Shown here: positions 23,335 to 61,853 of the stretch, piece by piece
Layout of the letters: each line of letters begins with the position of its first letter
Numbering within the stretch: the stretch's first letter is position 1
Source of the DNA: Microcaldota archaeon
GTDB lineage: Archaea; Micrarchaeota; Micrarchaeia; Anstonellales; Bilamarchaeaceae
NCBI GenBank assembly: GCA_018812715.1
Contig: JAHJCT010000011.1
Location: 1 to 64,000 of the forward strand
Length of the DNA stretch: 64,000 bases
Reading direction: 5' to 3'
Made by a program: the position numbers and the translations under genes
The notes under the pieces: generated by a model
What the model saw: the letters and a program-made list of their open reading frames with translations, nothing else
Database searches by the model: none
Told to the model about the DNA's origin: nothing

Positions 23335-23466
23335 TTTATACTCTTTTTCTGCATTAATATACTCGCAGACTTTCAACTTTGACCACCGAAAAATTTATAA
23401 ATAGCTATGTTCATAATTCTTATACGAGTTTTTAAAAACTTTATGTTAAATTGTGGAGGTTTTCAT

Positions 23467-24381
23467 ATGGGTTCTACGGCTACTAAATGTCCAGAATGTA
23501 AGAGTAAAAGAGTTATTCGTGATTATGAAAAAGGAGAGCTTCTTTGTGCCAGCTGTGGTTTGATTATAGCTGAGAATATTCATGATATGGGTCCAGAATG
23601 GCGTGCCTTTGATGCCGAACAAAAGGAAAAGAAGGCAAGAGGCGGTGCCCCAATCAAATATATGAGGCCAAACAAGGGCCTTGTAACTGAAATTGACCAG
23701 TACAATAGAGATATTAGAGGAGGTAAAATTAGTCCAAAGAAACAGGCACAGCTTTATCGTATGAGAAAATGGCATAAACGTGTTTCTATTGCCACTTCAA
23801 TGGAAAGAAACCTGGTTATTGCCCTTGCTGAGCTTGATAGAGTTGCTTCTGCCCTTGGATTGCCAGAGAATATCAAGGAAAGTGCAGCACTTTTATACAG
23901 GCGTGCAGTCAAAGAAGAGCTTATTAGAGGAAGATTAATTGAGAGTGTTGTTTCTGCTGTAATTTATGCTATTTGTAGATTGCAAGGAATCCCAAGAACA
24001 CTGGATGAAATATCCAGAGCATCAGGCATTGAGAAGAAAGAGATCGGCCGTGCATACAGATTCCTTAAGGCAGAGTTAAAGGTTGACGTTCCTTTGACAG
24101 ATCCAGCACAATATGTTCCTAAATTTGCTACTGCTCTTAAGCTTGGCGGCGATGTGCAGAAAGAAGCTATTAAACTGATAAAAAAGGCTTTGAAAAAAGG
24201 ACTTATTTCAGGAAGAGGGCCTACTGGTGTAGCTGCTGCAGCTCTTTATATAGCAAGCGCAATGCATGGTGAAAAGAAAACACAGAAAGAAGTTGCTGAT
24301 GTAGCTGGCGTTACTGAAGTTACAATAAGAAACCGCTACAGAGAATTAAAGAAAGAGCTTGGTCTTAAGGTCAACCTTTAG
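23467..24381 (+). CDS. tfb: Transcription initiation factor TFB
   Basis: 304 residues from ATG 23467, preceded by a Shine-Dalgarno GGAGGT 6 nt upstream; in-frame codons further upstream lack support. The N-terminal zinc ribbon (CPEC ... CASC, residues 8-27), B-reader/linker (PEWRAFDAEQ) and two cyclin-fold repeats follow, each ending in a helix-turn-helix (the second: VAGVTEVTIRNRYRELKKEL). It bridges TBP and RNA polymerase and reads the BRE. The TATA element TTTATAAATA (about 23393) implies a leader of roughly 50 nt, unlike most leaderless genes here. Confidence 0.96.
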   Translation: MGSTATKCPECKSKRVIRDYEKGELLCASCGLIIAENIHDMGPEWRAFDAEQKEKKARGGAPIKYMRPNKGLVTEIDQYNRDIRGGKISPKKQAQLYRMRKWHKRVSIATSMERNLVIALAELDRVASALGLPENIKESAALLYRRAVKEELIRGRLIESVVSAVIYAICRLQGIPRTLDEISRASGIEKKEIGRAYRFLKAELKVDVPLTDPAQYVPKFATALKLGGDVQKEAIKLIKKALKKGLISGRGPTGVAAAALYIASAMHGEKKTQKEVADVAGVTEVTIRNRYRELKKELGLKVNL

Positions 24382-24710
24382 ACTAACATGGCACAGGCAA
24401 TAGCTTCTATCTCGTCCATTGTTGCAGTTCTAACTACGAACCTGCCAGAGGATGTTTCTACTATCGATTTGCCATTTCTAGGTTCTTCGCCATCTAATTC
24501 TCTAACTACTATTCCAAGTATCTCTACACTAGAATTTTGATTTGCCAATCCACTCGGACCTCTCACAACAGCTTCCAGGGTTCTTGTTCTTTGAATGCGT
24601 GCTTCGACTTCTCCAACTCTTTTCTTTGCTGCATCAAGGATTTTAGATATTGGCTGAGATCTATCAGTCTTATCTATGGGTAGTCCTCTAGCTAAGTGAT
24701 TAAATGTCAT
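24378..24710 (-). CDS. Hypothetical protein, 110 residues
   Basis: No family recognised. A soluble, mixed alpha/beta-looking protein with a basic N-terminal helix (ISKILDAAKKRVGEVEARIQ) and a C-terminal ETSSGRFVVRTATMDEIEAIA. Support for a real gene: the minus-strand TATA element TTATTTATAAAC (about 24732-24744) is centred about 28 nt before the ATG, fitting leaderless expression. The stop overlaps the tfb stop by 4 nt (convergent). Confidence 0.55.
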   Translation of the reverse strand: MTFNHLARGLPIDKTDRSQPISKILDAAKKRVGEVEARIQRTRTLEAVVRGPSGLANQNSSVEILGIVVRELDGEEPRNGKSIVETSSGRFVVRTATMDEIEAIACAMLV

Positions 24711-24782: not shown

Positions 24783-24845
24783 TTGATGATGATTGTTCGA
24801 CAGACCGAGGAGAAATCCTGTGAAGATAACATCACGTCTGAGAAC
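24783..24845 (+). ncRNA. C/D-box sRNA, complete
   Basis: All four boxes of an archaeal methylation guide are in order: box C ATGATGA 24786-24792, 12-nt guide, box D' CCGA 24805-24808 (one mismatch), GGA-GAAA-TCC hairpin spacer, box C' GTGAAGA 24820-24826, 11-nt guide, box D CTGA 24838-24841. A TATA-like TTTATA at about 24757-24762 lies about 26 nt upstream. Guide RNAs of this type direct 2'-O-methylation of the nucleotide pairing five bases upstream of D or D'. Targets were not determined. Confidence 0.72.
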
Positions 24846-24945
24846 TTTTGCTTTTAGTCAACTGAGGGCAAAAGTTCATTAACAACAATAAACTTTGTTC
24901 ATTGTGCCCCTTGAATCTAATTCAAGCGGGAGGTCGACCGTATTA
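24843..24945 (+). repeat. Hairpin elements M1 and the GTGCCC-hairpin-CGGGA module
   Basis: Hairpin M1 has arms AACTTTTGC (24843-24851) and GCAAAAGTT (24868-24876); its 3' arm alternatively pairs with AATGAACTT at 24776-24784, enclosing the sRNA. Next comes GTGCCC, the perfect hairpin CTTGAAT-CTA-ATTCAAG and CGGGA (about 24904-24932), then the palindrome GGTCGACC. The same modules recur at 25.05-25.14, 25.26 and 25.45-25.59 kb, so this is a dispersed structural repeat rather than a terminator. Confidence 0.6.
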
Positions 24946-25025: not shown

Positions 25026-25189
25026 GTGATGAGAAGCAATACCTCTGAGGAAACTTTTTAGGAACACGATTGAATGCTTTGCATTCAAGGTGCCCATTGA
25101 AACTTCGTTTCAATCGGGAAGTTTCATCAAAAACTAGTTTTGGTGGAGCTTTTACTAAAAGCTCCAATGAAGAAGATCTTGAGTTCTGA
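25026..25189 (+). ncRNA. C/D-box sRNA split by a 119-nt structured insert
   Basis: Box C GTGATGA (25026-25032), 12-nt guide, box D' CTGA (25045-25048); then, far downstream, box C' TGAAGA (25168-25173), 12-nt guide, box D CTGA (25186-25189). Both guide halves have the correct length, but D' and C' are separated by 119 nt (25049-25167) instead of a few. The insert is nothing but hairpins: TTGAATGC/GCATTCAA, ATTGAAAC/GTTTCAAT and GGAGCTTTT/AAAAGCTCC inside an outer AAACTTTTT...AAGTTT pairing. Parts match the tRNA-Glu anticodon intron. A TATA-like CTTATAATT lies at about 24995-25003. Intron versus expanded loop is unresolved. Confidence 0.6.
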
Positions 25190-25251
25190 CGAACGCAGTG
25201 AGGAAGAACTTGAGAGATTTGAACGAAGTTCAAATAGATCTTGAGTTCTGA
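25175..25251 (+). repeat. 77-bp direct repeat, copy 1
   Basis: Identical over 77 nt to 25373-25449. Each copy itself begins and ends with the 15-mer GATCTTGAGTTCTGA, so it looks like an insert (25190-25234) flanked by a duplicated D-guide plus D box. Inside are a stem CTTGAGTTCT/AGAACTTGAG (two G-U pairs) and the perfect hairpin ATTTGAAC-GAA-GTTCAAAT. Copy 1 overlaps the 3' half of the split C/D sRNA. Confidence 0.9.
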
Positions 25252-25372
25252 ACCATTACTTTTGACTTATGTCCTCTAAGGGCAAAAGTAAAGGTATTGG
25301 TCAAAAACCTTGAGGCAATCCTAAAGAAGTTTGATGAAACTTTAACCTTAGTAAATAAGGAGAAAAGTTTCT
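25252..25372 (+). other. Non-coding spacer with M1-type hairpin and box-C-like element
   Basis: Contains hairpin TACTTTTG (25257-25264)/CAAAAGTA (25283-25290), whose 5' part CTTTTGACTT is identical to the start of the tRNA-Glu D-loop intron. A box-C-like TGATGA is at 25332-25337, followed by GAAACTTT...AAAGTTTC pairing. No reading frame of note is present. Confidence 0.55.
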
Positions 25373-25449
25373 GATCTTGAGTTCTGACGAACGCAGTGAG
25401 GAAGAACTTGAGAGATTTGAACGAAGTTCAAATAGATCTTGAGTTCTGA
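25373..25449 (+). repeat. 77-bp direct repeat, copy 2
   Basis: Exact second copy of 25175-25251, 198 nt downstream, with unrelated flanks on both sides (preceded by AAGTTTCT, followed by CCCGAAACC). The identity over 77 nt with sharp ends implies recent duplication or concerted conversion within the RNA array. Confidence 0.9.
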
Positions 25450-61562: not shown

Positions 61563-61620
61563 ATCTAATTTTATAAACTCTTAGTATAAAAGAAGAAACT
61601 AGCTCCTGTAGTCTAGTGGC

Positions 61621-61700
61621 CTTTTGACTTCTGCATTTCTTAGGACAAAACCCCAGGGAAAAGTCCTGAGGTAGACTAAGTCAAAGGTTGGATATTCCGG
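61621..61700 (+). other. tRNA-Glu D-loop intron
   Basis: 80-nt insert between AGTGG and TCAAGGAT. It is highly structured: outer helix CTTTTGACTT/AAGTCAAAGG (61621-61630 with 61677-61686) and inner helix AGGAC/GTCCT. Because GG ends both exon 1 and the insert, the cut could lie 0-2 nt earlier. I could not draw a strict BHB at these ends, so the motif is relaxed or splicing has two steps. Confidence 0.65.
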
Positions 61701-61720
61701 TCAAGGATATCAGACTCTCA

Positions 61721-61775
61721 GAAACTTTTTAGGAAAAAGTTTCATCAAAAACTGGTTCTTGATAAGTTTGGAGTT
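61721..61775 (+). other. tRNA-Glu intron 37/38 with strict BHB
   Basis: Exon CTCT pairs with intron GGAG (one G-U) as the 4-bp central helix; bulges CAG and TTC; outer helix is the anticodon stem TCAGA/TCTGA; inner helix AAAC/GTTT. Cutting after the second bulge base gives loop CTCTCAC. Inside are the hairpins GAAACTTTTT-AGG-AAAAAGTTTC and ATCAA...TTGAT. Its first 14 nt, and a later 17 nt, recur in the split C/D sRNA at 25.05-25.14 kb. Confidence 0.82.
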
Positions 61776-61853
61776 CTCTGAGGACCCGGGTTCGAATCCC
61801 GGCGGGAGCAATCAATACAAATATTTTTAATGATCAGATACATACTGCTACGT

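Follow-up and report, generated by a model that had tools for sequence, protein, structure and literature searches.

The locus at 25026-25189 raises the question of how a box C/D guide sRNA can carry a long insert between its D' and C' boxes, and whether such an insert is removed as an intron or kept in the mature RNA. The window analysed here is the stretch of 64,000 nt with which contig C36 begins, and the genome scanned was 1.27 Mb. Direct reading of the forward (+) strand gave box C (GTGATGA, 25026-25032), a 12-nt D' guide (GAAGCAATACCT, 25033-25044), box D' (CTGA, 25045-25048), the D'-C' spacer (25049-25166), box C' (ATGAAGA, 25167-25173), a 12-nt D guide (AGATCTTGAGTT, 25174-25185) and box D (CTGA, 25186-25189). 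An earlier note on this DNA had described the four boxes and both 12-nt guides as intact, which was confirmed by direct reading and by comparison with 16 distinct orthologues in which these boxes are conserved; its spacer length of 119 nt is corrected here to 118 nt. The note had also placed a second C/D sRNA with an 11-nt D'-C' spacer at 24786-24841 (+), and this neighbour was borne out, the spacer consisting of GGAGAAATCC and a T.

Sequence comparison indicates that 25026-25189 is a real, conserved dual-guide C/D sRNA. The boxes were close to RUGAUGA and CUGA and the guides fell in the 10-12 nt range, as in archaeal box C/D sRNAs, whereas the length of 164 nt lay outside the size of ~50-70 nt that is typical of these RNAs but does not define them. 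The total length of the five insert-bearing orthologues was about 110-164 nt. A genome-wide scan for the pattern C-guide-D'-stem-C'-guide-D returned three matches in 1.27 Mb, two of which were the sRNAs of the window; the third, at C7:1257, is probably a chance match, and the same architecture scan of the reversed genome gave none. When the window was searched with the Rfam covariance models, nothing reached the gathering score, and a relaxed threshold yielded weak sub-gathering matches only. Both sRNAs lay downstream of a TFB gene (23407-24381), which places the organism in a Micrarchaeota lineage. This order recurred in many relatives, with synteny across one Micrarchaeota genus and its family, and the TFB of same-genus and same-family Micrarchaeota genomes was up to 96% identical.

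The 16 distinct orthologues, the window included, had a common architecture of C, D', C' and D boxes with both guides, while their spacers measured 9, 11, 13, 13, 13, 13, 17, 20, 21, 21, 22, 64, 70, 73, 115 and 118 nt. When the spacer interior was left out and guide 1 was trimmed to 12 nt, every orthologue was 55 nt long. In 15 of the 16, with short and long spacers alike, the ends of the spacer paired (at least 3 bp) in a stem that was flush with D' and stopped exactly one nucleotide before C'. Permuting the spacer ends among species gave this one-nucleotide register in 4.6 orthologues on average and in 11 at most. The basal pairs of the window insert join 25049-25051 to 25163-25165, leaving the single nucleotide 25166 ahead of C'. 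Moreover, the four basal pairs showed 22 two-sided changes and a covariation score of 0.82, as compared with 0.20 in shuffles (0/500), both figures including alignment cells that are related by descent, and shifting the register of the basal stem lowered the score.

In the standard numbering of kink-turns, stem I begins right after D', and one extra base, designated L1, stands ahead of the C box. On that reading, the short and the long spacer forms would alike be internal kink-turns; the fold, the register and the covariation suggest that the insert (25049-25165) is an expanded stem I and that 25166 is L1. Whether the archaeal C'/D' motif is an internal k-turn or a k-loop depends on whether it is flanked by a stem I or by a loop (PMC8413462), and a covarying, predicted stem I with a one-nucleotide L1 was found here at the sequence level.

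The TFB gene tree robustly paired L063, which has a 73-nt spacer, with L068, which has a 13-nt spacer. Since the two are well-supported sisters, the spacer must have changed recently in at least one lineage; the number of insert gains is uncountable because the tree is weak at the position of the window itself. The orthologue spacers of the neighbouring sRNA ranged from 9 to 61 nt. Seven distinct orthologues, counting the window, had 9-13 nt; the others had 24, 29, 50, 55 and 61 nt, made of different, unrelated hairpins. The D'-C' stem expansion is thus recurrent in the lineage.

The spacer of the window had a predicted folding energy of -42.1 kcal/mol (z = -6.1; 0/200 shuffles as low). Hairpin 1 has a 5' arm, GAAACTTTTT (25050-25059), and a 3' arm, GAAGTTTC (25118-25125), that are common to tRNA and rRNA introns. 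Its loop holds a nested two-hairpin module (25060-25117). A related module occurs in L069, and an interrupted tRNA gene (C17:24329-24395) holds a copy with 94% identity over 67 nt. Hairpin 1 is followed by a central inverted repeat, ATCAAAAAC-TA-GTTTTGGT (25126-25144), recognized from the orthologues and the fold, and by hairpin 2, GGAGCTTTT-ACT-AAAAGCTCC (25145-25165), recognized by sequence comparison; all of these lie on the + strand. Without its nested parts, the insert consists of a hairpin, ATCAAAAAC...GTTTTGGT and a hairpin, and is nearly its own reverse complement. The long spacers proved to be one near-palindromic element that occupies the same site in either orientation, one way in the window, L069 and L098 and the other way in L063 and L079. 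Between the orientation classes, 58-64 of 62-69 aligned bases were identical after reverse-complementing, and clearly fewer otherwise. The window and L069 have the additional nested hairpin pair, while the 22-nt spacer of L070 has only the outer arms and looks like a collapsed element. The idea of a group I intron, prompted by PMC6125680, was dropped; no Rfam family was matched at the gathering score and the inserts were simple hairpin chains.

These observations are best accounted for if a functional dual-guide sRNA keeps the insert as an enlarged kink-turn stem I and the insert is not an intron, which is probably the case. The internal D'/C' motif would be a kink-turn rather than a kink-loop, and its stem I may have grown from a hairpin of ~10 nt to a branched stem of 117 nt by way of the near-palindromic repeat and a nested second module. 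Because the element folds back on itself, D' and C' would remain juxtaposed with the one-nucleotide register normal, and the two 12-nt guides would retain their geometry despite the insert. With the geometry preserved, the insert is therefore predicted to remain in a mature RNA of ~165 nt as an expansion stem. We infer that the locus is transcribed, that the RNA keeps its insert and assembles with L7Ae, Nop5 and fibrillarin, and that the particle methylates its targets.

Complementarity to rRNA or tRNA that places a candidate methylation site at the fifth nucleotide from D or D' was found for both guides, in helix 34 of 16S rRNA and at C34 of tRNA-Leu(CAA). The D' guide paired over 9 bp with AGGTATTGC of the organism's own 16S rRNA (gene fragment at C17:39-47), and the D' guide common among the orthologues, GAATGCAATACCT, paired with 16S rRNA over 11 bp. 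By the fifth-base rule, the D' guide would direct methylation of the A of AGGTA, which we take to be near position 1053 of the E. coli sequence, in helix 34. The D guide paired with ACTCAAGATCT, a sequence that arises in the anticodon arm of tRNA-Leu(CAA) on splicing. The match with the organism's own tRNA-Leu(CAA) was 11 bp (ACTCAAG|ATCT) and was present only across the spliced junction, a long intron separating CTCAAG from ATCTGC in the gene (about C7:250173, minus strand). The relatives L228-L231 had the same tRNA-Leu(CAA) anticodon arm. The base five from box D is C34, the wobble base, which would be the methylated position; since the target exists only after the tRNA has been spliced, splicing should precede methylation there. 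Pyrococcus is known to have sRNAs that guide modification of the first anticodon base in tRNA-Leu(CAA) (PMC7994747). The intron of this tRNA gene (C7, about 250000-250210, minus strand) was very long and rich in repeats.

The earlier note was also right that the insert has sequence in common with a tRNA intron. The pair GAAACTTTTTAGG...AAGTTTCATCAAAAACT was found in the tRNA-Glu(CTC) gene (61602-61810, +), where a bulge-helix-bulge (BHB) splice motif accompanies the shared element in the canonical 37/38 intron (61721-61775), and in many further tRNA and rRNA genes. This tRNA gene apparently has an intron in the D arm as well as the one after the anticodon. The 16-base core of the element occurred in 23 of 59 related genomes, as compared with a single match across all of them for a reversed-pattern control. 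Many of its contexts were 16S and 23S rRNA genes and tRNA genes, in the latter the anticodon loop and the D arm, and some were intergenic or 3'-flanking. The rRNA introns built of the same repeat carry BHB motifs and, by the BHB model, measure 57 nt in the 16S gene (C17:1-200) and 46 nt in the 23S gene (C36, near 219040-219080). The 23S exon join, CCAGTAC|AGGTGCTC, matched the relative L234 exactly, and the 16S join, GTGGTGTGA|ACTGTCC, was plausible.

A BHB motif was present in many of the tRNA and rRNA copies. The BHB score, which covers the motif with its outer helices, was 13-17 for the better tRNA and rRNA copies and 5-9 for the sRNA copies. A control in which the downstream flanks were exchanged reached at least 12 in 4.7%. 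Several tRNA copies scored from zero to ten, and the strict BHB test therefore has limited sensitivity. Without introns, ARAGORN detected almost no tRNAs; after splicing of the candidate BHBs, a procedure that was too strict, it gave few solutions, of which tRNA-Glu(TTC) was clear. Interruptions, in several cases more than one per gene, seem to affect most tRNA genes of this genome, and standard tRNA finders miss these genes for that reason.

The strongest alternative is that the insert is an intron, cut out by an endonuclease and closed by a ligase to leave a standard C/D sRNA of ~55-65 nt. The repeat belongs to the same family as the BHB-bearing introns of tRNA, 16S and 23S genes, most of its other copies lie in RNA segments that get spliced out, and orthologues with and without the insert coexist. 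The orthologue series would also fit splicing within the stem that left the basal pairs in place. Moreover, the genome encodes two endonucleases, one of 394 aa with two tRNA_int_endo matches and one of 160 aa. By domain count and length, the 394-aa protein appears to be three-unit-like and to resemble the epsilon2 type of ARMAN-2, an enzyme of relaxed specificity that accepts relaxed motifs (PMC12397907). Because the endonuclease has such relatives, the absence of a strict BHB is no proof of retention.

Several observations nevertheless make excision unlikely, 1) strict BHB motifs (two 3-nt bulges flanking a 4-bp helix) were absent from matching positions among the insert-bearing orthologues, 2) the long-stem folds of L079 and L063 had no pair of 3-nt bulges, 3) the kink-turn geometry is already correct in the unspliced form, and 4) the element can sit at this site in either orientation, which is ill-suited to directional splice signals. 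Splicing of the sRNA insert at a strict BHB is not supported by these comparisons. Weak BHB-like candidates lay at a different place in each orthologue; relaxed motifs such as BHL, which an epsilon2-type enzyme may cleave, are hard to separate from chance by sequence, and splicing at one of them keeps some probability. The earlier note had offered a choice between an intron and a tolerated large loop; the second option is the better supported once it is refined to a retained extension of kink-turn stem I, while the first keeps some basis in the repeat family but is opposed by the lack of a consistent BHB in the sRNA copies. A broader scheme, in which short palindromic repeats colonise the structured-RNA genes of one archaeal lineage and are rendered harmless by splicing from tRNA and rRNA at BHB motifs and by excision from the guide sRNA by a relaxed-specificity endonuclease, is doubtful to a similar degree. 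If true, such an intron would, to our knowledge, be without precedent among C/D guide sRNAs. Two tandem related repeats (AAGTTTGATRAAACTTTAACC..., C7:171399-171497, L007) directly follow the stop codon of the 394-aa endonuclease, an arrangement that may be autoregulatory.

It is improbable that the insertion inactivated the sRNA and that the locus is a decaying pseudogene accumulating repeats. Repeats do lie in intergenic and 3'-flanking positions, with more of them just downstream of the sRNA, and the D' guide of the window pairs over 9 bp with its target as against 11 in the orthologues, but each of the five insert-bearing lineages preserves its boxes, both guides and the register of the stem. 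The possibility, raised in the earlier note, that C' and D are part of a different RNA beginning downstream, the two-part sRNA being a coincidence, is scarcely credible even though the D guide and D box sequence recurs three more times downstream, as it is contradicted by eleven short-spacer orthologues with the same boxes and guides contiguous in about 55-70 nt and by the empty control scan.

The sRNA shares with known archaeal box C/D guide sRNAs, which combine a k-turn and a k-loop in ~50-70 nt (PMC7994747), the C, D', C' and D boxes, the 12-nt guides and the predicted rRNA and tRNA-wobble targets, but differs in its 164 nt and in a probable internal k-turn whose 117-nt branched stem I consists of repeats. 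The 5S rRNA of Halococcus morrhuae, in which a large insertion is kept and forms a four-way junction (PMC7530397), is the nearest precedent found for a small archaeal RNA that keeps a large insert. The Halococcus insert branches from a junction and leaves the core undisturbed, as is predicted here; however, the host of the present insert is a guide RNA, inserts occur in several lineages and the repeat forms introns elsewhere. The same repeat makes up intron bodies in tRNA, 16S and 23S genes, as in archaeal BHB introns, including the noncanonical introns of ARMAN (PMC12397907, PMC4090602), whereas the sRNA copy lacks exon-complementary BHB strands. No description of such guide RNAs was found in the limited set of literature searched. 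The palindromic elements of Rickettsia are short palindromes that lodge in genes and are kept in the product; the present element may resemble them but differs in being archaeal and biased to RNA genes.

Within one family, the length of the D'/C' kink-turn stem would range from 9 to 118 nt at a fixed guide geometry, and the series offers a natural experiment on the amount of additional RNA that the C/D particle tolerates. It also bears on a possible preference of RNAs with a true internal k-turn for mono- over di-particles. In addition, the guide RNAs are linked to the repeat family that makes up the tRNA and rRNA introns of the same cells, so that the flanks appear to decide whether one and the same sequence is spliced out or retained.

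A 110-aa ORF (24378-24710, minus strand) with no match in Pfam lies between the TFB gene and the sRNAs. A 77-nt repeat (25175-25251, +) consists of the D guide and D box, a hairpin with an antisense arm and a second D guide and D box, and a second copy lies at 25373-25449 (+). The extra D guide and D box, GATCTTGAGTTCTGA, form the 3' arm of the hairpin, and the 5' arm is complementary to the guide. One or two units of this type were present past the D box in L061, L064, L070, L071 and L075, and the arrangement is therefore conserved; it may act as a decoy or a processing signal, or be the scar of a duplication. A second repeat family, hairpins of the type ACTTTTGACTT...GGGCAAAAGT, was found at 24842-24877, at 25252-25300 and in tRNA introns, among them those of tRNA-Ser(GCT) and tRNA-Pro(CGG).
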